DNA of 64,000 nt from assembly GCF_030490285.1 (NCBI RefSeq), contig NZ_CP129884.1, positions 558,001 through 622,000 on the forward strand, read 5' to 3'. The translations under genes and the position numbers were made by a program. Position 1 is the first letter of the stretch. The number at the start of each line of letters is the position of its first letter. This document shows positions 5,824-61,850 of the stretch, one piece after another. The stretch comes from Methylomonas montana. GTDB lineage: Bacteria; Pseudomonadota; Gammaproteobacteria; Methylococcales; Methylomonadaceae. Under the pieces are notes generated by a model, which saw only the letters and a list, made by a program, of their open reading frames with translations, was not told where the DNA came from and did not search any database.

Positions 5824-6358
5824 GCTTATTCTCCTGTTTGGGGGTGAGCGGTTTAATCGATGGCCAGTGTTTTAAAATTCGATAGTCAACGCCATCGGTG
5901 CCAGGGCAGGATTCCACCAAACAAAAGCCGTCTGAGTGCCAGATGATGGGATTGAAGGCGATATCAATTGCCGAGCGGGCTTTTTTCATCAAGGTGACAT
6001 GCGGTGTAAATGGCCGATCGTCTATCACTATTCCGTGTCGCTTGGCGATGGCAGCTAAATTCTCGTTCAATAATGCAATGTTTTGATCGACTGAATCGGT
6101 GGTTAGGCATTGCACCGCCGGCTTTTTCCAGAAGCTTAGGTGGTCGAAAGTCAACGACGTTAACGAAGCTGGAATGCGAGCTGCGTCCCGTGTAATTGCG
6201 GCTTGTTGTTCGGAAGGAAGATGGCCCAAAAATAGCAGCGTCACATGTAAATTTGCCGCGGTTACTGGTTTGCCGGTGCTGTTAAGTTTAGCGATTATGG
6301 CCTCGCATTGCTGCCGGGCGGTTTGCTCGGGCCATAAGGCAAAAAAGAGACGTTTCAA
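5798..6358 (-). CDS. thpR: RNA 2',3'-cyclic phosphodiesterase (2'-5' RNA ligase family)
   Basis: A 186-residue member of the 2H phosphoesterase family, which hydrolyses 2',3'-cyclic phosphodiester RNA ends and can ligate tRNA halves through 2'-5' bonds in vitro. The two catalytic H-x-T tetrapeptides are present: HVTLLFLGHL near residue 39 and HVTLMK near residue 124. The start MKRLFFALWP is standard for ThpR. The gene is followed, with a 26-base overlap, by the tautomerase gene, an arrangement suggesting one transcript. Confidence 0.93.
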   Translation of the reverse strand: MKRLFFALWPEQTARQQCEAIIAKLNSTGKPVTAANLHVTLLFLGHLPSEQQAAITRDAARIPASLTSLTFDHLSFWKKPAVQCLTTDSVDQNIALLNENLAAIAKRHGIVIDDRPFTPHVTLMKKARSAIDIAFNPIIWHSDGFCLVESCPGTDGVDYRILKHWPSIKPLTPKQENKHALFKTEY

Positions 6359-6791
6359 GCTGCCATCCTCAGGTTGCGTTGAGCTGGAAATGCAATTTTT
6401 TTCCTTTTTTTATCGGTTCGGTAAAAAGTTTATTTCGTCGGTAAGTGAGCCGATATTTGCGTCAAAACCCTTTGCTAAAATAGGTTTTTTCCGGGCTGGG
6501 GCCAAAAAATATCTAAATTAATCAGCTTGTAACGTTTGGATCCTAAATTCCAGTCCCGATTTTCGCACTGTTGCCGGCGAGTTGGTTCAGACTAAGGTTT
6601 CGGAGCAAAATTGTCTAGTAACGATTTGTCCTTCAGTCTGTGCGTGGCGCGGTATTGCTAAGCATTGACATATATCCCATTTCTATCTTACAGTTACAAA
6701 TGCATCACACGTACGTGACAAGCCTAGCGGGTTGTGGCAATTTGCAAGAATCGGCTATTACTAAAAATTAAAAACTATCGGAGCACATCAC
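6359..6791 (+). promoter_or_regulatory. Leader region of RuMP locus 1 with candidate sigma70 promoter
   Basis: This 433-base stretch holds no gene I can support. A candidate promoter is TTGACA at 6665-6670 and TACAGT at 6689-6694, spacer 18, about 100 bases before the hps start. The sequence just before the ATG (atcggagcacat) is also present before the second hps copy, which likewise has a TTGACA-N18-TAGAGT upstream. The first 200 bases are A/T-rich with no clear structure. The promoter is read from consensus only. Confidence 0.45.
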
Positions 6792-7439
6792 ATGGCAAGA
6801 CCATTAATTCAAATGGCGTTGGATTCACTGGATTTCAACCAAACCGTTGCATTGGCAGATCAAGTAGCACCTTATGTCGATATTTTTGAAATCGGTACAC
6901 CTTGCATCAAATACAACGGTATCAATCTGGTTAAAGAACTGAGACAACGTTTCCCAGACAAATTGTTGTTGGTTGACCTGAAAACCATGGACGCTGGTGA
7001 ATACGAAGCAGGTGCTTTCTATGCTGAAGGCGCGGATATCGTCACCGTACTGGGTGTTTCTGGTTTGGCGACCATCGCCGGCGTTGTTAAAGCCGCGAAA
7101 AAACACGGTGCAGAAACTCAAATCGACTTGATCAACGTCGAAGACAAAGCCTATATCGCGAAAGAATCAGTGAAATTGGGCGCGCAAATCGTCGGTATTC
7201 ACACAGGTCTGGATGCGCAAGCAGCTGGTCACACACCGTTCACCGATCTGAACGATATCGCGCGTCTGGGCCTGAACGTCCGCATCTCAGTTGCTGGCGG
7301 TATCAAACAAGCCACTGTGCAACAAGTGGTTGAAGCCGGTGCCAACATCATCGTGGTTGGTGCCGCTATCTACGGTGCACCGTCACCTGCCGAAGCAGCC
7401 CGCGAAATTCGCGAATTGGTTGACGCAGCGGCGGTATAA
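6792..7439 (+). CDS. hxlA: 3-hexulose-6-phosphate synthase, copy 1
   Basis: Fixes formaldehyde onto ribulose 5-phosphate to form D-arabino-3-hexulose 6-phosphate, the first RuMP-cycle step (the gene is also called hps). The 215-residue TIM-barrel protein carries the orotidine-decarboxylase-superfamily signature VDLKTMDAGEYEA (D-x-K-x-x-D), the N-terminal QMALDSLDFNQ, and the C-terminal phosphate loop region VAGGIKQATVQQV / IIVVGAAIYGA. A good ribosome site (cggag) precedes the ATG. It is 3 bases from hxlB. The protein is identical to the second copy at 57056 except for one extra C-terminal valine; the DNA differs at roughly a dozen silent positions. Confidence 0.98.
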   Translation: MARPLIQMALDSLDFNQTVALADQVAPYVDIFEIGTPCIKYNGINLVKELRQRFPDKLLLVDLKTMDAGEYEAGAFYAEGADIVTVLGVSGLATIAGVVKAAKKHGAETQIDLINVEDKAYIAKESVKLGAQIVGIHTGLDAQAAGHTPFTDLNDIARLGLNVRISVAGGIKQATVQQVVEAGANIIVVGAAIYGAPSPAEAAREIRELVDAAAV

Positions 7440-7442
7440 GTC

Positions 7443-7976
7443 ATGCATCAGCAGTTAATTATTGACAAAATTTCAGGGATTCTGGAAGCGACACCCGACT
7501 CGCACGACAAAACCTTGGTCGATATGCTGGATCAAGCCAAGCGTATTTTTATCTCAGGTGCTGGTCGTTCAAAGCTGGTCGGCAACTTCTTCGCGATGCG
7601 TTTGATGCACGGCGGTTATGACGTCAGCGTGGTTGGTGAAATCGTTACGCCAAGCATTAAAGCTGGCGATTTGTTGATCGTCATCTCCGGTTCCGGCGAG
7701 ACAGAGCAGTTGGTTGCGTTTACCAAAAAAGCCCGTGAAGTCGGTGCCAAAATCTGCCTGATTTCGGCAAAAGATGACTCCACTATTGGCGATTTGGCAG
7801 ATCTTACTTTGCAAATTGGTAGAGCGGAACAGTATGGCAAAGTCAAAGGTATGCCGATGGGTACTGTGTTCGAGTTATCTACCTTGTTTTTCTTGGAAGC
7901 CACTATTTCTCATGTAATCCATGATAAAGGCATTCCAGAAGAAGAAATGAGATCAAGACACGCCAATTTGGAATAA
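7443..7976 (+). CDS. hxlB: 6-phospho-3-hexuloisomerase
   Basis: Isomerises 3-hexulose 6-phosphate to fructose 6-phosphate, the second RuMP step. This 177-residue SIS-domain protein has the sugar-phosphate-binding pattern ISGAGRSKLVGNFFAMRLMH followed by VISGSGETEQLV, and the PHI-type end KGIPEEEMRSRHANLE. It starts 3 bases after hxlA and is surely co-translated with it. Only this RuMP locus has a PHI gene; the second locus goes directly from hps to tkt. A hairpin (7987-8014) follows it. Confidence 0.97.
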   Translation: MHQQLIIDKISGILEATPDSHDKTLVDMLDQAKRIFISGAGRSKLVGNFFAMRLMHGGYDVSVVGEIVTPSIKAGDLLIVISGSGETEQLVAFTKKAREVGAKICLISAKDDSTIGDLADLTLQIGRAEQYGKVKGMPMGTVFELSTLFFLEATISHVIHDKGIPEEEMRSRHANLE

Positions 7977-7986
7977 TTGCGTGCAG

Positions 7987-8014
7987 CCTGTGATCGGAGT
8001 GATTCGATCACAGG
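7987..8014 (+). terminator. Hairpin after hxlB
   Basis: Perfect 10-base arms cctgtgatcg / cgatcacagg with an 8-base loop, followed by tttaatt. It could terminate part of the hxlAB transcripts or protect their 3' end; the short T tract argues for read-through to tkt. Confidence 0.55.
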
Positions 8015-8174
8015 TTTAATTACAATAACATTTGGGTGTCAAGGTGATACCGATTCCAGCAGTCTGAAAGAACGAGAGTGTGGTTTTGGTCGTCCTTGTG
8101 TTTACCAACCAGCCAGAGCGATGTTTGCATAGCCAAGCGTTGCACTTAAAATAACAAAATTAAAGGAGACCAAC

Positions 8175-10176
8175 ATGCCTTCGCGCCGAGACTTAGCGAA
8201 CGCCATCCGCGCACTCAGCATGGACGCCGTACAGAAAGCCAACTCAGGCCACCCCGGTGCGCCGATGGGGATGGCCGACATTGCAGAAGTATTGTGGAAC
8301 GATTTTCTGAATCACAACCCTAGCAACCCAAAATGGGCCAACCGCGACCGCTTCATCCTGTCCAACGGTCATGGCTCGATGCTGATTTATTCCTTGCTGC
8401 ATTTGGCCGGCTACAATCTGCCGATCGACGAACTGAAACAGTTCCGCCAACTGCACTCCAAAACCCCAGGCCATCCTGAATACGGCTATACCGACGGCGT
8501 TGAAACCACCACCGGTCCCTTGGGACAAGGCATCACCAATGCGGTAGGTTTCGCTTTGGCGGAACGCACCCTGGCCGGCCAATTCAACCGTCCCGGACAC
8601 GACATCGTCGATCACCACACCTACGTATTCCTGGGTGACGGCTGCCTGATGGAAGGTATCTCCCACGAAGCCTGCTCACTGGCGGGTTCCATGGGCTTGG
8701 GCAAACTGATCGCCTTCTACGACGACAACAACATTTCCATCGACGGCGAAGTGCGTGGCCACGGCAACGTCCACGGCTGGTTCCTGGATAACACCCCGAA
8801 ACGCTTCGAAGCCTACGGCTGGCACGTCATCCCCAAAGTCGACGGTCACAACCCCGACGCGGTGAAAAAAGCCATCGAAGAAGCCAAAAAAGTCACCGAC
8901 AAACCCAGCCTCATCTGCTGCCAAACCACCATCGGTTTCGGCTCGCCTAACAAACAAGGCAAAGAAGAATGTCACGGTGCCGCGCTGGGCGAAGCTGAAA
9001 TTGCCTTGACGCGCGAAAACCTGGGCTGGCCGCATGCGCCGTTTGAAATTCCGGCCGACATCAAAGCCGGTTGGGATGCCAATGCCAAAGGCGCGCGCCT
9101 GGAAGCAGCCTGGAACGACAAATTTGCCGCTTACCAAGCCGCGCATCCTGAACTGGCTGCCGAATTCGTCCGCCGCATGGCCGGCGAACTGCCTGCCGAC
9201 TGGGCCGCAAAATCCAACGCCTTTATCGCCGAAGTCAACGCCAAAGGCGAAACCATCGCCAGCCGTAAAGCCTCGCAAAACACCCTGAACGGCTTCGGTC
9301 CGTTGTTGCCGGAACTGCTGGGCGGTTCTGCCGATTTGGCCGGTTCCAACCTGACCCTGTGGTCCGGTTGCAAAGATGTCTGCGCCCCCGGTCATGACGG
9401 CAACTACATCTACTACGGCGTGCGCGAATTCGGCATGTCCGCGATCATGAACGGCCTGGTGCTGCACGGCGGCTTCAAACCTTACGGCGCCACCTTCCTG
9501 ATGTTCAGCGAATATGCCCGTAACGCCCTGCGCATGGCCGCGCTGATGAAAGCCCCGACCATCTTCGTATACACCCACGACTCTATCGGTCTGGGCGAAG
9601 ACGGCCCGACTCACCAACCGATCGAACAAACCGCCACCCTACGCATGATCCCCAACATGCAAGTCTGGCGTCCCTGCGACGCAGTGGAATCGGCCGTGAG
9701 CTGGAAAGCCGCCATCGAACGCCAAGACGGTCCCAGCACCCTGATCTTCTCCCGTCAAAACCTGCCGCACATGGCTCGCAGCCAGGCGCAGCTCGACGCG
9801 ATCAGCAAAGGTGGCTACATCCTGAAAGACAGCGCCGGTACCCCGGATGCCATCATCATCGCCACCGGCTCCGAAGTCGAGTTGGCCGTGAAAGCGGCAG
9901 AAGCCTTAGAAGCTAAAGGCAAAAAAATCCGCGTGGTATCCCTGCCATCGACCAACGTCTTCGAAGCGCAAGACCAAGCCTACAAAGACAGCGTGTTGCC
10001 GCCTAGCGTGGCCAAACGCGTGGTGGTGGAAGCCGGTGTCACCGACAGCTGGTGGAAATATGCCGGTAGCGAGGGAAGAGTCGTCGGATTGGACCGTTTC
10101 GGCGAATCGGCCCCGGCCGGCCAGCTCTTCAAAGAGTTTGGCTTTACCGTGGACAATGTCGTCGCGAATGTGGAAG
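8175..10176 (+). repeat. Long direct repeat, partner of 57851-59852 (tkt coding sequence)
   Basis: About 2 kb of tkt recurs in the same orientation at 57851-59852. By eye I see no difference from the ATG up to the last codons, where gcc-gtt becomes gct-gtg. The flanking sequences differ immediately outside the coding region. The two copies are about 49.7 kb apart as direct repeats, so recombination between them could delete or duplicate the intervening DNA. Confidence 0.85.
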
Positions 10177-10187
10177 CCGTTCTTTAA
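8175..10187 (+). CDS. tkt: Transketolase, copy 1
   Basis: Thiamine-diphosphate enzyme that moves two-carbon units between sugar phosphates, regenerating ribulose 5-phosphate in the RuMP cycle. The 670-residue length is normal (E. coli TktA 663). The ThDP/Mg motif starts [13 protein letters not shown] and ends near DDNNISIDG; other family segments are [31 protein letters not shown] and [16 protein letters not shown]. Ribosome site aaaggag at good spacing. It lies 198 bases after hxlB. The coding sequence looks identical to the copy at 57851 by eye until the last codons, with unrelated flanks, suggesting recent gene conversion or duplication. Confidence 0.98.
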
Positions 10188-10208
10188 TTTTGGTAAACAG
10201 TAGGTGGA

Positions 10209-10241
10209 GCTTTGATTTTTTGATTCGTCAATAATCAAAGC
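10209..10241 (+). terminator. Hairpin after tkt copy 1
   Basis: Arms gctttgatt / aatcaaagc with a 15-base loop, followed by cttgctttt. It stands between tkt and the membrane repeat-protein gene; A/T-rich and only moderately convincing as a terminator. Confidence 0.4.
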
Positions 10242-10271
10242 CTTGCTTTTCTAACAGCATAGGTGAGAGAC

Positions 10272-10961
10272 GTGAAAAGAAATGAATTAACGAAAGGCGT
10301 GATGGCAGCTTTGCTGCTGACCAGTTCTTTGGCGATGGCAGAGGAGTACCCGGCGGCCGATTATCAACCAAAGGTGCTTTATACCAACCCAGACTATAAA
10401 GCAGAAGACGCTAGCGCTCCAGCCGCAGCTAAGCCTGCTGCGAAAGCTAAAGAAGTTGAAGTTGTCGAGCAAGATGCCAATTACCCGGCAGCTAATTATC
10501 AGCCTAAGGTGTTGTTTGCCGATTCCGCTTACAAACACGATAAATCTGCGCCTCAAGCTTCTGCCTCAAGCAAATCGACTTCATCTAGTGCCGCTGCTGG
10601 TAGTGAAGAATCAAGTGCCGGTGTTGCGGAAAAAGCTGAAGGTTCCTCTAATACCCTGATTGCTTTGATTGCGCTCGCGGCTGTAGGTTTTTTCTTGTAC
10701 AGCAAAAAATCCGGGTCTAAATCCGGTGCTGCAAGCGGTTCCTCGGCTAGTTATGTAGAAGCGGGTGGTGCTACAGGTGTTGAGAAATATCTGGATAAAA
10801 TTGGTGCGAATAAAACCGGTGTTGCTAAGTATTTGGAAAAACAAAGCTCTAATCCAGCGACTGGTGTTGCAAAATACATGGCCAAACAAATCGTAAAAGA
10901 TAGAGAAGCTGCCGCTTCAAAAGCGACTGGCGTAGAAAAATATTTACGGGATAGAGGATAA
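10272..10961 (+). CDS. Predicted bitopic membrane protein with YPAA and TGVxKYL repeats
   Basis: A 229-residue protein I do not recognise. It starts with a signal peptide (about 1-23, ending SLAMA). The exported part has two copies of the motif YPAAxYQPKVL(Y/F), at residues 26-37 and 71-82, then a Ser/Ala-rich linker. A single membrane helix (about 127-144, LIALIALAAVGFFLY) is followed by the basic stop-transfer sequence SKKSGSK. The C-terminal part, predicted cytoplasmic, has four TGVxKY(L/M) motifs at about 168, 182, 197 and 219, the last ending the protein as TGVEKYLRDRG. I chose GTG 10272 because aggtgag lies 6 bases upstream; GTG 10263 would overlap it. It sits inside the RuMP locus between tkt and tal. 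Topology is prediction; the function is unknown, possibly tethering RuMP enzymes to the membrane. Confidence 0.85.
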   Translation: MKRNELTKGVMAALLLTSSLAMAEEYPAADYQPKVLYTNPDYKAEDASAPAAAKPAAKAKEVEVVEQDANYPAANYQPKVLFADSAYKHDKSAPQASASSKSTSSSAAAGSEESSAGVAEKAEGSSNTLIALIALAAVGFFLYSKKSGSKSGAASGSSASYVEAGGATGVEKYLDKIGANKTGVAKYLEKQSSNPATGVAKYMAKQIVKDREAAASKATGVEKYLRDRG

Positions 10962-11044
10962 TAAATTATCAGTAAGTTTTAATGCTGATAGCCGGCGGGA
11001 TCGAGCAGAACCGATGCATTGATTCGTTGCCGGCAAGTTCAATC

Positions 11045-11108
11045 GAATCGCCACTTCGCATATTTTGAGGCTTGCAGTTACGCTTCGAAATATGCGAAGT
11101 GGCGATTC
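11045..11108. repeat. Perfect 21-bp inverted repeat (large hairpin) before tal
   Basis: The left arm 11045-11065 (gaatcgccacttcgcatatt plus t) is matched exactly by its reverse complement at 11088-11108. Pairing continues inward for about six more positions with two G-T pairs, leaving a loop of about 10 bases. No T tract follows, so it is not an ordinary intrinsic terminator. It sits in a 294-base stretch (10962-11255) that otherwise shows no gene. A palindromic repeat element or an mRNA stability hairpin are both possible. Confidence 0.8.
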
Positions 11109-11255
11109 AGTCTTATAAAACCTAATTTTAAAACAGGGTTTCTTCACCAGGGACTCTTATACGATCAATCTCCTGCAAGAATTACTGAACAATTTATAAG
11201 TGGTCAGTGCAAATTAGAAGGGGAGCAAAATTAATAGCAAACTGAGGATATTCCT

Positions 11256-12242
11256 ATGGCAAAAAATTTACTTGAACAACTCCGCGAAATGACCGTTGTT
11301 GTTGCCGACACTGGCGACATCCAAGCGATTGAAACCTTTAAACCACGCGACGCGACTACCAATCCTTCTTTGATTACTGCTGCCGCGCAAATGCCGCAAT
11401 ACCAAGGTATCGTTGATGATACATTGAAAGGCGCTCGTGAAACTTTGGGCGCGGCTGCCTCAGCTGCGCAAGTCGTCACACTGGCATTCGATCGTCTGGC
11501 TGTTTCTTTCGGCCTGAAAATTCTGGAAATCGTTGAAGGCCGCGTATCTACCGAAGTCGATGCCAGATTGTCTTACGACACCGAAGCAACTATCGCTAAA
11601 GGTCGTGACCTGATTGCTCAATATGAAGCAGCGGGTATTTCCAAAGAACGCGTACTGATCAAAATCGCAGCAACTTGGGAAGGTATCCAGGCTGCGGCTG
11701 TATTGGAAAAAGAAGGTATTCACACCAACCTGACTTTATTGTTTGGTTTGCACCAAGCGATTGCTTGCGCAGAAAACGGTATTACCCTGATTTCTCCATT
11801 CGTTGGCCGTATTTTGGACTGGTACAAAAAAGACACCGGTCGCGATTCTTATGCACCTACTGAAGATCCAGGCGTATTGTCAGTAACTGAAATCTACAAC
11901 TACTACAAAAAATTCGGCTACAAAACCGAAGTAATGGGTGCCAGCTTCAGAAACATTGGCGAGATCACCGAATTGGCGGGTTGCGATTTGCTGACCATCG
12001 CGCCTTCCTTGTTGGCTGAACTGCAATCTGTTGAAGGCGATCTGCCGCGTAAATTGGATCCAGCTAAATCGGGTTCTTCTGCTATTGAAAAAATCAATGT
12101 CGACAAAGCGACTTTCGATCGCATGCACGAAGAAAACCGTATGGCCAAAGAAAAATTGGCGGAAGGTATTGACGGTTTCGCCAAAGCATTAGAAGCCTTG
12201 GAAAAGTTGTTGTCAGCTCGTTTGGCCAGTCTGGAAGCTTAA
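11256..12242 (+). CDS. tal: Transaldolase
   Basis: Transfers dihydroxyacetone units between sugar phosphates (fructose 6-phosphate plus erythrose 4-phosphate to sedoheptulose 7-phosphate plus glyceraldehyde 3-phosphate), part of RuMP rearrangement. The 328-residue protein is of the TalB type (E. coli 317). Family motifs: TTNPSLI near the N-terminus, the Schiff-base lysine in [26 protein letters not shown], and [13 protein letters not shown]. The ATG follows a gaggat ribosome site. It lies 13 bases after a long gene-free leader and about 100 bases before fba, with a hairpin in between. Confidence 0.97.
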
Positions 12243-12249
12243 AAAGATT

Positions 12250-12278
12250 GCGAGCAGAGATTCAAACTCTCTGCTCGC
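12250..12278 (+). terminator. Hairpin between tal and fba
   Basis: Perfect 11-base arms gcgagcagaga / tctctgctcgc with a 7-base loop. No T tract follows (gttcagtc), so it may stabilise or process the tal mRNA rather than stop transcription. Confidence 0.5.
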
Positions 12279-12345
12279 GTTCAGTCACGATTTAGTTGGG
12301 CTGCTTATTCTTTGAGTAACCCGATTTCTACGCAGGATTTATGGC

Positions 12346-13425
12346 ATGTCACAAAAAATATTAGATGTTGTTAAGCCCGGTGTTGTAACCGGTGAAGATG
12401 TTCAAAAAATCTTTGCTATTTGCAAAGAAAATAAGTTTGCTTTGCCTGCTGTCAACGTGATCAGCACCGATACCATTAACTCGGTTTTGGAAGCGGCAGC
12501 AAAAGTAAAATCGCCAGTAGTGATTCAGTTTTCAAATGGCGGTGCGGCGTTTGTGGCTGGTAAAGGCTTGAAATTAGAAGGTCAAGGTTGCTCAATTGTC
12601 GGTGCAATCTCCGGCGCTCACCATGTGCACGCGATGGCTGAGCACTATGGCGTGCCTGTTATTTTACATACCGACCATGCCGCGAAAAAATTGTTGCCAT
12701 GGATTGACGGCTTGCTGGATGCCGGCGAGAAGCATTTTGCAGCGACCGGTAAACCTTTATTCAGTTCGCACATGTTGGATTTGTCTGAAGAAAGTCTGGA
12801 AGAAAATATCGAAATCTGCGGCAAGTATCTTGAACGTATGTCCAAAATGGGCATGACGCTGGAAATCGAGCTGGGTTGCACCGGCGGCGAAGAAGATGGC
12901 GTCGATAACAGCGGTATGGATCATTCTGCTTTGTATACTCAACCTGAAGACGTGGCGTATGCGTATGAGCATTTGAGCAAAATTAGCCATCGTTTCACCA
13001 TTGCCGCGTCATTCGGTAACGTTCATGGTGTTTATTCACCAGGTAACGTCAAACTGACTCCGACAATTTTGGCTAACTCGCAAAAATATGTTTCCGAGAA
13101 ATTCGGTTTGCCACATAACACTTTGAACTTCGTATTCCATGGCGGTTCCGGTTCTTCTCCCGAAGAAATCAAGGAATCCATCAGCTACGGCGTCGTGAAA
13201 ATGAACATCGACACCGACACCCAATGGGCAAGCTGGGCCGGTGTGATGGAATTCTACAAGAAAAACGAAGGTTATTTGCAAGGCCAAATCGGCAACCCCG
13301 ATGGTGCCGATAAACCAAACAAAAAATATTATGACCCACGTGTTTGGCAACGTGCCGGCCAAGTTGGCATGGTGACTCGTTTGGAGCAAGCCTTCCAAGA
13401 GTTGAACGCCGTTAATTCGTTGTAA
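12346..13425 (+). CDS. fba: Fructose-bisphosphate aldolase, class II
   Basis: Zinc-dependent aldolase joining or splitting fructose 1,6-bisphosphate into triose phosphates; in RuMP bacteria it also acts in carbon rearrangement. The length (359 residues) equals E. coli FbaA. Zinc and substrate motifs are in place: VILHTDHAAKKLLPW, EIELGCTGGEEDGVDN, FGNVHGVYSPGNV, FHGGSGSS and VVKMNIDTDTQWA. It is the last gene of RuMP locus 1 and is followed by an 11-base-stem hairpin (13439-13464). Confidence 0.98.
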   Translation: MSQKILDVVKPGVVTGEDVQKIFAICKENKFALPAVNVISTDTINSVLEAAAKVKSPVVIQFSNGGAAFVAGKGLKLEGQGCSIVGAISGAHHVHAMAEHYGVPVILHTDHAAKKLLPWIDGLLDAGEKHFAATGKPLFSSHMLDLSEESLEENIEICGKYLERMSKMGMTLEIELGCTGGEEDGVDNSGMDHSALYTQPEDVAYAYEHLSKISHRFTIAASFGNVHGVYSPGNVKLTPTILANSQKYVSEKFGLPHNTLNFVFHGGSGSSPEEIKESISYGVVKMNIDTDTQWASWAGVMEFYKKNEGYLQGQIGNPDGADKPNKKYYDPRVWQRAGQVGMVTRLEQAFQELNAVNSL

Positions 13426-57055: not shown

Positions 57056-57690
57056 ATGGCAAGACCATTAATTCAAATGGCGTTGGATTCACTGGATTTC
57101 AACCAAACTGTTGCATTGGCTGATCAAGTAGCGCCTTATGTTGATATTTTTGAAATCGGTACACCTTGCATCAAATACAACGGTATCAACCTGGTTAAAG
57201 AACTGAGACAACGTTTCCCAGACAAACTGTTGTTGGTTGACCTGAAAACCATGGACGCTGGTGAATACGAAGCCGGTGCTTTCTATGCTGAAGGCGCGGA
57301 TATCGTCACCGTACTGGGTGTTTCTGGTTTGGCGACCATCGCCGGCGTTGTTAAAGCCGCGAAAAAACACGGTGCAGAAACTCAAATCGACTTGATCAAC
57401 GTCGAAGACAAAGCCTATATCGCGAAAGAATCAGTGAAATTGGGCGCGCAAATCGTCGGTATTCACACGGGTCTGGATGCGCAAGCAGCTGGTCACACAC
57501 CGTTCACCGATCTGAACGACATCGCACGTCTGGGCCTGAACGTCCGCATCTCAGTTGCTGGCGGTATCAAACAAGCCACTGTGCAACAAGTGGTTGAAGC
57601 CGGTGCCAACATCATCGTGGTTGGTGCCGCTATCTATGGTGCACCGTCACCTGCCGAAGCAGCCCGCGAAATTCGCGAATTGGTTGACGC
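57056..57690 (+). repeat. Direct repeat, partner of 6792-7426 (hps coding sequence)
   Basis: The hps coding sequence recurs in the same orientation at 6792-7426 with about a dozen silent base differences, spread along its length. Similarity extends a few bases upstream over atcggagcacat. Divergence is higher than in the tkt repeat, so the two pairs have different recombination histories. Confidence 0.85.
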
Positions 57691-57700
57691 TGCTGCATAA
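57056..57700 (+). CDS. hxlA: 3-hexulose-6-phosphate synthase, copy 2
   Basis: Second copy of the RuMP formaldehyde-fixing enzyme. 214 residues, identical to the first copy except that it lacks the final valine; signature VDLKTMDAGEYEA is intact. By eye the two genes differ at about a dozen positions, all silent, and in the last codons. Unlike copy 1 it is not followed by a PHI gene but, after a terminator hairpin and 150 bases, by tkt. The duplicated gene may allow separate regulation or higher dosage. Confidence 0.97.
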   Translation: MARPLIQMALDSLDFNQTVALADQVAPYVDIFEIGTPCIKYNGINLVKELRQRFPDKLLLVDLKTMDAGEYEAGAFYAEGADIVTVLGVSGLATIAGVVKAAKKHGAETQIDLINVEDKAYIAKESVKLGAQIVGIHTGLDAQAAGHTPFTDLNDIARLGLNVRISVAGGIKQATVQQVVEAGANIIVVGAAIYGAPSPAEAAREIRELVDAAA

Positions 57701-57766: not shown

Positions 57767-57850
57767 TCGTTCGTTATAACCCCCAGTTTTTACCGGGCAC
57801 GGCTGATCATGAGCCGGCTCGTACAATAAGAAATCATAGGAGAACCAAAC

Positions 57851-59863
57851 ATGCCTTCGCGCCGAGACTTAGCGAACGCCATCCGCGCACTCAGCATGGA
57901 CGCCGTACAGAAAGCCAACTCAGGCCACCCCGGTGCGCCGATGGGGATGGCCGACATTGCAGAAGTATTGTGGAACGATTTTCTGAATCACAACCCTAGC
58001 AACCCAAAATGGGCCAACCGCGACCGCTTCATCCTGTCCAACGGTCATGGCTCGATGCTGATTTATTCCTTGCTGCATTTGGCCGGCTACAATCTGCCGA
58101 TCGACGAACTGAAACAGTTCCGCCAACTGCACTCCAAAACCCCAGGCCATCCTGAATACGGCTATACCGACGGCGTTGAAACCACCACCGGTCCCTTGGG
58201 ACAAGGCATCACCAATGCGGTAGGTTTCGCTTTGGCGGAACGCACCCTGGCCGGCCAATTCAACCGTCCCGGACACGACATCGTCGATCACCACACCTAC
58301 GTATTCCTGGGTGACGGCTGCCTGATGGAAGGTATCTCCCACGAAGCCTGCTCACTGGCGGGTTCCATGGGCTTGGGCAAACTGATCGCCTTCTACGACG
58401 ACAACAACATTTCCATCGACGGCGAAGTGCGTGGCCACGGCAACGTCCACGGCTGGTTCCTGGATAACACCCCGAAACGCTTCGAAGCCTACGGCTGGCA
58501 CGTCATCCCCAAAGTCGACGGTCACAACCCCGACGCGGTGAAAAAAGCCATCGAAGAAGCCAAAAAAGTCACCGACAAACCCAGCCTCATCTGCTGCCAA
58601 ACCACCATCGGTTTCGGCTCGCCTAACAAACAAGGCAAAGAAGAATGTCACGGTGCCGCGCTGGGCGAAGCTGAAATTGCCTTGACGCGCGAAAACCTGG
58701 GCTGGCCGCATGCGCCGTTTGAAATTCCGGCCGACATCAAAGCCGGTTGGGATGCCAATGCCAAAGGCGCGCGCCTGGAAGCAGCCTGGAACGACAAATT
58801 TGCCGCTTACCAAGCCGCGCATCCTGAACTGGCTGCCGAATTCGTCCGCCGCATGGCCGGCGAACTGCCTGCCGACTGGGCCGCAAAATCCAACGCCTTT
58901 ATCGCCGAAGTCAACGCCAAAGGCGAAACCATCGCCAGCCGTAAAGCCTCGCAAAACACCCTGAACGGCTTCGGTCCGTTGTTGCCGGAACTGCTGGGCG
59001 GTTCTGCCGATTTGGCCGGTTCCAACCTGACCCTGTGGTCCGGTTGCAAAGATGTCTGCGCCCCCGGTCATGACGGCAACTACATCTACTACGGCGTGCG
59101 CGAATTCGGCATGTCCGCGATCATGAACGGCCTGGTGCTGCACGGCGGCTTCAAACCTTACGGCGCCACCTTCCTGATGTTCAGCGAATATGCCCGTAAC
59201 GCCCTGCGCATGGCCGCGCTGATGAAAGCCCCGACCATCTTCGTATACACCCACGACTCTATCGGTCTGGGCGAAGACGGCCCGACTCACCAACCGATCG
59301 AACAAACCGCCACCCTACGCATGATCCCCAACATGCAAGTCTGGCGTCCCTGCGACGCAGTGGAATCGGCCGTGAGCTGGAAAGCCGCCATCGAACGCCA
59401 AGACGGTCCCAGCACCCTGATCTTCTCCCGTCAAAACCTGCCGCACATGGCTCGCAGCCAGGCGCAGCTCGACGCGATCAGCAAAGGTGGCTACATCCTG
59501 AAAGACAGCGCCGGTACCCCGGATGCCATCATCATCGCCACCGGCTCCGAAGTCGAGTTGGCCGTGAAAGCGGCAGAAGCCTTAGAAGCTAAAGGCAAAA
59601 AAATCCGCGTGGTATCCCTGCCATCGACCAACGTCTTCGAAGCGCAAGACCAAGCCTACAAAGACAGCGTGTTGCCGCCTAGCGTGGCCAAACGCGTGGT
59701 GGTGGAAGCCGGTGTCACCGACAGCTGGTGGAAATATGCCGGTAGCGAGGGAAGAGTCGTCGGATTGGACCGTTTCGGCGAATCGGCCCCGGCCGGCCAG
59801 CTCTTCAAAGAGTTTGGCTTTACCGTGGACAATGTCGTCGCGAATGTGGAAGCTGTGCTTTAA
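57851..59863 (+). CDS. tkt: Transketolase, copy 2
   Basis: Same 670-residue product as the gene at 8175; ThDP motif [13 protein letters not shown] intact. Coding sequence looks identical until the last few codons (gct-gtg here, gcc-gtt there), whereas sequences outside the coding region are unrelated. Ribosome site ataggaga before the ATG. It is followed after 76 bases by the exported YPAA-repeat gene, just as copy 1 is followed by the membrane repeat-protein gene. Confidence 0.98.
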
Positions 59864-59939
59864 TTAGCACTATGTAACAGGCCTGCCGGTGTGTTTATCG
59901 GTGGGTCTGTCATTTAATCAATAGAGTAAGGTGGAAACC

Positions 59940-60218
59940 ATGATGAACGCGCAATTGGTTAAGGGATTTTTAATGGGGTTTATATTAACGGCGTCAGCTG
60001 CTGCCGGTGCCCAAGAATATCCTGCAGCGGATTTTCAACCTAAGGTTCTCTACAGAGATTCGTCAATTGCAGAAGTGGCGCCGGCGAGTTCGCCAACCGC
60101 TGCCGCCAGCAATGCCAACGCGCCTTGCCCTCAAAAGCAAGAGTCCTCTGAGGTTGATGCAAAATATCCGGCCGCCAGCTTTCAGCCCAAGGTATTATTC
60201 AGCGCTGCAGGTTCGTAA
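59940..60218 (+). CDS. Small secreted protein with two YPAAxFQPKVL repeats
   Basis: 92 residues (ATG 59940; a second ATG follows directly). Signal peptide (about 1-24, FLMGFILTASAAAGA). The mature part opens with EYPAADFQPKVLY (27-38 for the motif), then a Ser/Ala/Pro linker with one cysteine, and a second copy KYPAASFQPKVLF (76-87), ending four residues later. The same motif occurs twice at the exported N-terminus of the membrane protein at 10272. No known domain; function unknown. A gtaaggtgg ribosome site supports the start. It lies between tkt and the 19-repeat gene. Confidence 0.8.
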   Translation: MMNAQLVKGFLMGFILTASAAAGAQEYPAADFQPKVLYRDSSIAEVAPASSPTAAASNANAPCPQKQESSEVDAKYPAASFQPKVLFSAAGS

Positions 60219-60299: not shown

Positions 60300-61670
60300 A
60301 TGACAACAAACAGTTTGATGAATAGCTTATTCGGCTTTTTATTCGACAAACCAGTTGATAGCGCTAGTCGGTCGGAAGTTTATTCAGGTGTTGATAGCGG
60401 AGCGGGTCAACTGACCGGTGTGGCGCGTTATTTGCTGAAATTGGAGCCGCCAGCGCCGGAAGTTCAAGATGAGCTGGAAGGTTTGACCGGCGTGGCTAAA
60501 TATCTGGCTTTGCAAGAGCAATTGGAAAGAGCCAAACAAGCAGCCGAACAGGCCGTTGTCGTTGAGCCGGTTGTCGAGGAAGCCTTAATTGAAGAAGTGA
60601 TAGAGGAAGAGTTGCTTGAGAGCGAGCCAGTTCTGACTGGTGTCGATAAATATCTGACACAGCAACAGGCCAATCCGGTTACTCGGGTGGCTAAATATTT
60701 GATTAAACAGTCCATTTTGTCGAAAGATGCGCCGGTAACAGGTGTTTCGAAATACATCACAAAGAATGATCGCGAAGAGCATGCGGTCACAAATGTCGCG
60801 AAATATGTGATCAGGCAAAATCAGTTGGCAGGTACGACGCCGCTGGTGACGGGCGTGGCCAAGTACGTGTTGAAACAAGATGTGTTGGCAAAAGAAGCAC
60901 CGGTGGCTACCGGTGTGAGTAAATATCTGACCAAACAGACCTTGCTGGCTAAAGATGCCCCGTTAGTCACAGGGGTTGCCAAGTATTTGGCGCAGCAAGA
61001 AAAGGTATTGAAAGAACAGGCTCCGCTGACAGGTGTTGCTAAATTTCTGGCGGAGCAGGCGGCGGCGGAAAGAAAGGCTGCTGCTGCAACCTTGGTTGCT
61101 CGATATGTCGAAGCAGAGATCAGATTGCAACAGGAAAAAGCGGAGGCGCAGTTGAAGCAAGAACAGGATACTCAGCAAGCACTTGCCGAGGAATTGGTGT
61201 TTGAAGGCTCGGCTGTGGAGCGTTATCTTGCCAGGCAGGCGGCATCGGCCGAATTGGCTCCAAAACCGACCGGCGTCGCGAAATATCTGGCCAGACAGTT
61301 GCAGTTGCAAAGTCAGATCGAGCCAATGACTGGTGTTGCCCGCTATCTTGCAAAGCAGGCGGTATTGGCAAGGCAGCAGCCGCCAGCTACCGGTGTGAGT
61401 AAATATCTGGCAAAACAACTTTTGGTACAAAAACCGGCGGCCGAACTCAGCTCTGTCAGTAGATATGTCATCAAACATGAATTGCAGGACAAAGACGCCA
61501 GGGAAGTGACTGGTGTTGCCAAATACGTGTCGAAACAGGGTACTTTAGCTAAGGACGCGCCAGCGGTATCCGGTGTGACTCGTTACATGGCAAAACAAGC
61601 TTTGCAACCCAAGGATGCTGTCGTGGCTAGAACCACGGGTGTCGAGAAATACTTACGTAAACAAGCGTAA
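60300..61670 (+). CDS. Soluble protein with 19 TGVxKYL repeats (20-residue period)
   Basis: 456 residues, no signal peptide or membrane helix, so predicted cytoplasmic. I count 19 copies of (T/S)xVx(K/R)(Y/F)(L/V/I/M) starting at residues 39, 63, 113, 128, 147, 164, 184, 204, 224, 244, 264, 304, 324, 344, 364, 384, 404, 424 and 446. From 164 to 264 and from 304 to 424 the spacing is exactly 20. A typical unit is TGVAKYLAKQ, then about four residues, then LAKDAP and a turn, so each may be a short helix plus linker. Residues 90-110 are strongly acidic. The final repeat TGVEKYLRKQA mirrors the end of the membrane protein at 10272. I do not know a described family; a multivalent scaffold is inference. 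Confidence 0.85.
   Translation: MTTNSLMNSLFGFLFDKPVDSASRSEVYSGVDSGAGQLTGVARYLLKLEPPAPEVQDELEGLTGVAKYLALQEQLERAKQAAEQAVVVEPVVEEALIEEVIEEELLESEPVLTGVDKYLTQQQANPVTRVAKYLIKQSILSKDAPVTGVSKYITKNDREEHAVTNVAKYVIRQNQLAGTTPLVTGVAKYVLKQDVLAKEAPVATGVSKYLTKQTLLAKDAPLVTGVAKYLAQQEKVLKEQAPLTGVAKFLAEQAAAERKAAAATLVARYVEAEIRLQQEKAEAQLKQEQDTQQALAEELVFEGSAVERYLARQAASAELAPKPTGVAKYLARQLQLQSQIEPMTGVARYLAKQAVLARQQPPATGVSKYLAKQLLVQKPAAELSSVSRYVIKHELQDKDAREVTGVAKYVSKQGTLAKDAPAVSGVTRYMAKQALQPKDAVVARTTGVEKYLRKQA
60414..61655 (+). repeat. DNA encoding 19 tandem-type TGVxKYL peptide repeats
   Basis: The repeat part of the gene at 60300. The protein period of 20 residues means a 60-base DNA period over 60789-61106 and 61209-61590, but the DNA units are well diverged at silent positions, so the array is old and kept by selection on protein rather than a fresh DNA expansion. 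Confidence 0.75.
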
Positions 61671-61685
61671 GTATTTTCGATATAG

Positions 61686-61721
61686 AAACCGATATCTCTT
61701 GCTAGAGGTATCGGTTTTTTT
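61686..61721 (+). terminator. Intrinsic terminator after the TGVxKYL gene
   Basis: A 14-base stem (aaaccgatatctct with agaggtatcggttt, one G-T) and a 4-base loop are followed by a run of T. A strong terminator closing RuMP locus 2. The next 130 bases to 61850 show no gene. Confidence 0.88.
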
Positions 61722-61850
61722 ATGGCCGGCTGTTTTTATTTCGGGTTAAGCGTCTGGTGGAAGCGCCGGCAGAACCCGGTATGGATTTATACGGTAGCGT
61801 TAAAACTGTATTATCATGGCTTACCATTATCAAATTTTGCAGGGATTTTA

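Follow-up and report, generated by a model that had tools for sequence, protein, structure and literature searches.

In methanotrophs formaldehyde is toxic, is made in the periplasm and is fixed by the cytosolic RuMP enzymes. A general issue is how these cells stop formaldehyde from escaping before RuMP fixation. The 64-kb stretch of DNA analyzed here, termed the window, contains two RuMP clusters and comes from a Methylomonas genome of 4.63 Mb assembled as one contig. A gene in cluster 2 encodes a protein built of repeated TGVxKYL-type units (class B), and the question is what such a protein does next to RuMP genes. In M. capsulatus Bath, whose transketolases are MCA3040 and MCA3046 (PMC517821), CRISPRi guides to the two RuMP operons became depleted in a screen on methane (PMC13108547). 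Both HPS copies of Methylomonas sp. DH-1 are reported as very highly expressed (PMC6373157).

The order of features is HPS, PHI, transketolase, class A, transaldolase and aldolase in cluster 1 (6792-13425), and HPS, transketolase, a 95-aa protein, class B and a terminator-like hairpin in cluster 2 (Table 1). Class B is thus encoded beside RuMP genes as claimed in the first-pass annotation, with HPS and transketolase located upstream. The hairpin region (61680-61725) was found to fold with -22.3 kcal/mol (z -7.9), a value equalled by none of 200 shuffles. A terminator consensus scan recovered just a weaker register (61711-61729) and listed 9 sites in all, no excess over the 8.3 expected. The transketolase genes of the two clusters, located about 50 kb apart, were 99.5% identical over 2045 bp (8147-10189 and 57822-59865), and the two HPS copies were 97.4% identical over 661 bp. 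This near-identity suggests gene conversion or recent duplication. No tRNA genes were found in the window by ARAGORN.

Table 1. Positions of motif proteins, RuMP genes and related features in the window and in other loci.
Feature	Sequence	Position	Strand	Remarks
HPS (3-hexulose-6-phosphate synthase) copy 1	window	6792..7439	+	RuMP cluster 1
PHI (6-phospho-3-hexuloisomerase)	window	7443..7976	+	putative; named from position after HPS
Transketolase copy 1	window	8175..10187	+	cluster 1; protein same as copy 2
Class A paralogue, 232 aa	window	10263..10961	+	signal peptide and two YPAA[DN]YQPKVL[YF] motifs before a TM helix at about residues 129-149, then four TGVxKYL units
Transaldolase	window	11256..12242	+	putative; 3' of class A gene, named from sequence
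Fructose-bisphosphate aldolase	window	12346..13425	+	putative; named from sequence
HPS copy 2	window	57056..57700	+	RuMP cluster 2
Transketolase copy 2	window	57851..59863	+	RuMP cluster 2
95-aa protein	window	59931..60218	+	signal-peptide-like N-terminus, two YPAA[DS]FQPKVL[YF] motifs, no TM or TGVxKYL
Class B protein	window	60300..61670	+	ATG start, 456 aa, 19 TGVxKYL-type units, amphipathic N-terminus, central long helix
Intrinsic-terminator-like hairpin	window	61689..61720	+	T7 tail, directly 3' of class B gene
Third class A paralogue	L039	3923-4507		
Third class A paralogue	L140	4147-4737		
Third class A paralogue	L175	759-1352		
Third class A paralogue	L182	5922-6506		
Short class B protein	L038	5527-5916		f4, genus g11
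Short class B protein	L238	6660-7145		f4, genus g11
YP-TM protein	L226	7031-7654	-	signal peptide, two YP motifs, TM helix, no TGV; f6/f2
YP-TM protein	L227	7223-7867	+	as L226
YP-TM protein	L228	6276-7031	-	as L226
YP-TM protein	L230	6850-7470	-	as L226
YP-TM protein	L229	1004-1648	-	as L226
Stand-alone YP proteins	L231-L236	about 6100-7270		88-119 aa; f1 and f4; away from RuMP genes
f10 long motif protein	L222	0-2549	-	chemotaxis-type
f10 long motif protein	L224	3745-9852	-	chemotaxis-type

The motifs of class B start at residues 39, 63, 113, 128, 147, 164, 184, 204, 224, 244, 264, 304, 324, 344, 364, 384, 404, 424, and 446, with steps of 20 residues from 164 to 264 and from 304 to 424 and a single 40-residue step between the two runs. 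This recount confirmed the number and spacing of motifs given in the first-pass annotation. Shuffling the class B residues 10,000 times gave a mean of 0.009 motif matches and a maximum of 2 compared to the real 19. The units were also found to be diverged in DNA as claimed, the copies having 60-90% identity to the reference copy of their repeat family. The consensus unit is TGVAKYLAKQ, some positions of which are already fixed by the search pattern itself. In AlphaFold models, whose confidence was moderate to low for class A and class B (mean pLDDT 63-64), class B (30 sequences; mean pLDDT 64) had no global fold (pTM 0.22). A helix was predicted to begin one to two residues past the motif threonine at 17 of 19 motifs, and one long mid-protein helix spanned residues 246-298, with confidence over about 251-290.

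The top 17-residue mean hydropathy of class B was 1.32, and the first 40 residues reached 0.88 (over 15 residues). Residues 4-14 are amphipathic with a hydrophobic moment of 0.58. The claim that the protein has no signal peptide or membrane helix is therefore upheld by hydropathy for the window protein, but is incomplete with respect to the amphipathic N-terminus. When distinct N-termini of long homologues were surveyed, 45 of 54 had a 15-residue stretch with a Kyte-Doolittle mean above 1.0 and 19 of 54 one above 1.6, some of the start codons possibly being mis-called. Class B is better called cytosolic, possibly N-terminally membrane-attached, than plainly cytoplasmic. Neither is it a lone protein, since it has a transmembrane partner with the same motif.

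This partner, class A, aligned with class B across the motif region with a probability of 99.3% in hhalign. The class A model (25 sequences) had a pTM of 0.21, and a helix began one to two residues past the motif threonine at all four motifs. The net charge was more positive after the TM helix than before it in 73 of 74 class A proteins, and for this reason the TGV end should be cytosolic. The 95-aa protein was 49% identical to residues 7-92 of the class A paralogue and is predicted to be of periplasmic type. As it matches the N-terminal part of class A, cluster 2 has a separate periplasmic module beside a long cytosolic protein, and in cluster 1 the periplasmic and TGV modules are fused via the TM helix of class A. 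The exact TGVxKY codon pattern matched the 4.63-Mb genome 14 times, with four matches in class A, ten in class B and none in the reversed control; no third gene of this genome carries the pattern.

We searched for known relatives of both proteins. For class B of the window no match in Pfam or NCBIfam passed the curated cut-off through a stretch sufficient on its own. The protein reached 23 bits to U1snRNP70_N, which has a cut-off of 23, with no stretch passing alone. The same model matched 26 of 30 class B members (best E 2.5e-9) on the charged central helix, and it was rejected as a relative because the match was read as compositional similarity. PF14960 (ATP_synth_reg) matched 6 of 30 class B members with a best E of 9.7e-8. 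This family is a small single-TM mitochondrial ATP synthase subunit; it resembles class B in having a TGIxKYF-like helix and differs from it in belonging to the mitochondrial ATP synthase. No stretch of the window protein passes here either; this family was likewise rejected as a relative, short-motif convergence being the most likely explanation. Class A of the window had no Pfam or NCBIfam match at E ≤ 0.01, and single members among 25 class A proteins matched seven unrelated models. The CsoS2 profile was absent among the 16 families matched by the 30 class B members at E ≤ 0.01. In PDB the long protein had no relative at E ≤ 1, and six weak matches of the double unit (best E 0.024) were read as chance. 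From these searches, no described family appears to cover class A or class B. A described domain with another role, the outcome that the first-pass annotation regarded as contrary to its proposal, was not encountered in Pfam or NCBIfam. The motif strings occurred in no paper searched, the coverage of the search leaving most subscription journals outside.

The window class B protein was compared to 29 orthologues from Methylomonas. Across the 30 sequences, identity to the window residue reached 0.88 for the core of the motifs, compared to 0.55 for the linkers. The dN/dS was 0.042 for the core and 0.203 for the linkers, ratios that are rough because dS was about 1.9 and 1.8, respectively, and near saturation. 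Eleven of 18 motif-to-motif distances were identical in all 30 sequences, the remaining seven being variable. When 30 long homologues were aligned, 23 columns were invariant, and 19 of these were the V or Y of a motif. The difference in identity between core and linkers, the dN/dS and the fixed distances support that motif and spacing are conserved by selection, within the limits of a saturated dS. This is in agreement with the earlier claim that the spacing is kept by selection. A low-complexity repeat protein without specific function would explain the biased composition and the weak matches to unrelated Pfam models; confronted with the low core dN/dS, the 11 invariant steps and the conservation across genera, we consider this explanation barely credible.

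A match was found in 43 of 61 genomes including the genome of the window itself; these were all 37 genomes of the genus and 6 of 24 outside it. The long protein was present over most of its length in 33 of the 37 genus genomes. One genome (G030) had a fragment at a contig edge, and three (G003, G004, and G010) had the short paralogue only, G003 and G004 being rated 99% complete. Several draft relatives have a contig edge lying some hundreds of bases 5' of the class B gene. One genome per species from 84,980 species was then scanned for two TGVxKY units 14-24 aa apart, a scan limited to certain codons (first Thr = ACC) so that variants were missed. It gave 91 stretches, 90 of which hold an ORF with at least two motifs. 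The 80 titles listed were Methylococcales-type methanotrophs, proteobacterial MAGs without a finer name and one planctomycete MAG. The planctomycete-titled match (L148) was rejected as chance, as it had no ORF bearing two motifs.

A RuMP gene was located within 3 kb on the same strand at 76 of the 90 loci, and at three more a XoxF-like gene was located there. Eleven loci had neither within this distance and on this strand; six of them (L117, L119, L125, L144, L168, and L187) had less than 700 bp of upstream DNA for inspection, and L112, L121, L155, L157, and L169 were real exceptions away from RuMP and XoxF genes. Counted per gene over loci L104-L194, a set which excludes loci L195-L210 that were picked for HPS, 94 of 116 motif genes had a RuMP gene within 5 kb. 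Upstream DNA of 3.3 kb or more was visible at 39 loci, and HPS was within 5 kb at 32 of these. Neighbors of motif genes were on the same strand in 306 cases and on the opposite strand in two. Among 25 same-strand pairs of adjacent motif ORFs, 22 were separated by 0-7 bp, two overlapped and one was separated by 475 bp. The usual order in Methylomonadaceae-type loci was hps-phi-tkt-A-B-tal-fba, with class A and B often adjacent, the split between classes being made by hydropathy with truncated ORFs assigned to B by default (e.g., L033, L045, and L120). Class A was immediately upstream of HPS in the Methylococcus, Methylocaldum, and Methylotetracoccus loci read, and between transketolase and HPS in the Texas strain of Methylococcus capsulatus (L134 and L181). 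Across Methylococcales, as well as in one family outside it, this gene family is physically linked to RuMP genes, and its position in RuMP clusters is consistent across genera. It is not exclusive to them: copies exist away from RuMP genes, and genomes with HPS exist that have no motif.

Within the order, HPS (TIGR03128, E ≤ 1e-30) was found in 250 of 301 genomes, 247 of them over the family cut-off; among 14 control genomes five matched TIGR03128 and two were over the cut-off. The exact codon pattern was present in 267 of 301 genomes, where one or two matches can be chance. As a test of presence the pattern was rejected because it undercounts: G091 had no match, although a class A gene with TRVARYL units adjoins HPS in this genome. 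Families of the order, denoted f1 to f8, differed. For f1 the analysis covered the codon pattern and HPS, and went further in nine genomes. The 18 genomes of f7 had no HPS and 0-1 pattern matches, as had the two f8 and three f2 genomes. Both HPS and class A were present in f3 (two genomes) and f5 (one genome). In f4 the class A profile matched 28 of 38 genomes, all 28 with HPS, the match in G079 covering the N-terminal part only; the genomes without a match were 7 of the 35 bearing HPS and the three without HPS. In f6, HPS was found in 9 of 10 genomes and the class A profile matched 10 of 10, the listed matches being confined to the N-terminal and TM part of the profile. TGV units were detected in f6 on one contig of G052 only. 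This contig was treated as probably foreign, its motif protein being identical to that of G038 from f3. The two loci concerned (L036 and L037) have the same RuMP gene content in two families, which points to probable cross-contamination of one assembly.

YP-TM proteins without TGV were read at four f6 loci and one f2 locus, and their tail differs from that of class A; those of f6 end in a conserved basic NRxRAxKTKRxRRR. The six stand-alone YP proteins read each had a signal-peptide-like start and two YP-type motifs. No neighbor gene was common to all six loci, and L232, L233, and L234 share a gene set. Short class B proteins were seen in genus g11 of f4, and the one in L038 lies immediately 3' of an ORF for a SulP-like transporter.

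Outside the order, the class A profile matched 7 of 369 genomes of the taxonomic class (the window's genome and the order included): three from the order, three from family f10 and one weak match from f17. The remaining genomes of a phylum sample had no motif profile match at E ≤ 1e-5 (0 of 397). Wide occurrence without RuMP genes, which the first-pass annotation had likewise regarded as contrary to its proposal, was thus not found, and the copies away from RuMP genes are a minority. In f10, presumably Methylophagaceae, a short class B protein of 97-204 aa with T[GS]VERYI-type units adjoined HPS and transaldolase at all seven loci read. The f10 proteins were 68-70% (HPS) and 81-83% (transaldolase) identical to those of the window. 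The double-unit profile matched 53 of 57 f10 genomes and none of the six genomes of f188, which we take to be Nitrosococcus-like. Conversely, PF02461 was found in 1 of 57 f10 genomes and in 6 of 6 f188 genomes. A strict rule that TGV tracks pMMO is contradicted by both families. The corresponding rule for YP was also rejected in its strict form, as PF02461 was found in 8 of 10 f7 genomes and 2 of 2 f8 genomes, yet there was no A1 match (8 of 8 and 2 of 2). It survives only if the f7 and f8 matches are other members of the PF02461 family.

This distribution bears on whether class A and B are structural proteins of intracytoplasmic membranes, which bind each other or lipid by means of their amphipathic helices and shape or stack the membranes, the RuMP linkage reflecting co-expression only. 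The TM helix, the amphipathic or hydrophobic N-termini and the YP-TM proteins without TGV in f6 and f2 agree with such a role; PF02461 was found in 7 of 10 f6 genomes and 2 of 3 f2 genomes. However, motif units nearly without PF02461 in f10 imply that methane-type membranes are not required, and f188 has PF02461 and no motif. We find a purely structural role improbable.

The f10 unit was also seen in much longer open frames (about 730-2065 aa). One of these long proteins (L222) was scanned and found to contain an Hpt domain and six copies of TSVERYIQQQ; judging from its neighbors, it presumably resembles a chemotaxis protein of the ChpA/PilL type. TGVxKYL could accordingly serve for docking to a general adaptor or positioning factor, by which any protein with the motif, whether RuMP-linked or chemotaxis-type, would be placed at a cell site such as a pole or membrane domain. 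The RuMP-linked proteins would in this case be placement adaptors rather than enzyme scaffolds. Motif arrays in long f10 proteins, one with an Hpt domain, and motif proteins away from RuMP genes fit with this. With 94 of 116 motif genes near RuMP genes and the exact codon pattern confined to two genes of the window's genome, a general docking signal is nevertheless unlikely.

The reading towards which we lean, if only by a little, is that class A and class B form a putative multivalent scaffold that clusters RuMP enzymes, perhaps HPS, at the membrane. The multivalent RuMP scaffold of the first-pass annotation is favored by the RuMP linkage, the rarity of the motif and the lack of a described family; the lone cytoplasmic protein did not stand, and the exceptions away from RuMP genes, the motif in long f10 proteins and the genomes with HPS but no motif count against the scaffold. 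Class B would be the long member of a two-component scaffold. Each TGVxKYL unit would be a short amphipathic helix capped by the threonine, with V, Y, and L on one face and short linkers between units, and would dock on one site of a RuMP enzyme. With 7-19 sites per class B chain and an oligomeric client, enzymes could be cross-linked into a cluster. Class A, mostly with 3-5 units behind its TM helix, would hold this cluster at the cytoplasmic or intracytoplasmic membrane near the source of formaldehyde, and its periplasmic YPxxF-x-P motifs may give a second docking face.

HPS is the candidate for preferred client only because it was present in all motif-bearing RuMP cluster types read (Methylomonas clusters 1 and 2, Methylotuvimicrobium, Methylococcus, f3, f5, and f10). 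HPS of Methylococcus capsulatus was reportedly purified from the particulate fraction by Ferenci and others in 1974. Against HPS as the client, transaldolase flanks the motif gene of f10 as closely as HPS does. Against a scaffold in general, RuMP operates without the motif: HPS is found in 9 of 10 genomes of f6, where no TGV array was detected apart from the probably foreign contig, and in the 7 of 35 f4 genomes mentioned above. The moderate to low confidence of the AlphaFold models and the two nearly complete genus genomes with the short paralogue only (G003 and G004) also count against it. We compared HPS at hand-picked loci, 21 with the motif (L154 gave no long HPS) and five without (four from f6 and one from G093). 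Identity to the window HPS was 72-96% where the motif was present (20 loci of the order) and 61-69% where it was absent (five loci), a contrast that at first pointed to HPS as the client. A tracking of the motif by HPS type was rejected, as f10 has the motif and an HPS of 68-70% identity, and identity therefore fails to separate loci with and without it. The failure of this check slightly lowered our expectation both of a scaffold and of the variant described next.

In this variant, class A is a two-faced transmembrane organiser, where the periplasmic YPxxF-x-P motifs bind periplasmic proteins of methane or methanol oxidation and the cytosolic TGVxKYL units of both classes gather HPS and partners beneath. 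Formaldehyde from methanol dehydrogenase would be trapped while crossing the membrane. Class A copies adjoining XoxF-like genes in Methylomonas (L039, L140, L175, and L182) fit with such an organiser, as do YP-TM proteins without TGV in f2 and f6 and the reverse case of the f10 loci read, which have TGV but no membrane half. We regard it as possible, though doubtful. The copies near the gene for a XoxF-like PQQ dehydrogenase represent a third class A paralogue with a YxPAEYQP motif, seen in some Methylomonas. A transmembrane class A gene within the RuMP operon could also encode a regulator or an assembly chaperone of the operon products, acting for instance in formaldehyde sensing across the membrane. 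A regulator would not usually have as many as 19 like sites, however, and no catalytic, sensory or DNA-binding domain was found above cut-off, which makes a regulatory role very improbable.

A scaffold of class A and B would have relatives in kind among known linkers. Rubisco systems provide known cases of a multivalent linker for a carbon-assimilating enzyme, and class B shares several features with these: many regular short motifs under selection, no global fold and predicted motif helices. In EPYC1, the Rubisco linker of the algal pyrenoid, short helical binding motifs recur at even spacing along a chain that is mostly disordered. Class B resembles it in both respects and is tied to a carbon-fixing enzyme by gene linkage; the class B unit is about 20 residues and occurs up to 19 times, a transmembrane partner shares the motif and the client is putative. 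No sequence relation to EPYC1 was found in family and PDB searches. CsoS2, the carboxysome linker, is encoded in the operon of the enzyme that it organizes and has repeated short motifs. Class A and B are likewise encoded in the operon of their would-be client enzymes and carry repeated short motifs, but no Pfam match to the CsoS2 model was found among 30 class B members. Membrane proteins of the pyrenoid, which have the Rubisco-binding motif in common with the linker, anchor the linker to membranes. By analogy, class A and B may represent one motif in a soluble linker and a membrane protein, tied to RuMP instead of Rubisco and encoded in a bacterial operon.

A multivalent linker for RuMP with a transmembrane partner would be new; topic searches showed no literature on RuMP scaffolds in the parts of it that were covered, most subscription journals lying outside. 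If the proposal is true, a conserved and genetically simple pair of proteins explains both the clustering of RuMP enzymes and their membrane attachment. The pair could be transferred to synthetic methylotrophs, whose growth is limited by formaldehyde handling.

Two further observations were made on other loci. In a Methylococcus-like assembly (L202 in G039) the RuMP genes are split into many frames, suggesting frameshift errors. Outside RuMP clusters, TGV-repeat proteins with a C-terminal Cys-rich domain (QCQAxTxKGTQC...C..H) were found in L032, L112, L155, and L237; the protein of L112 had no Pfam match.
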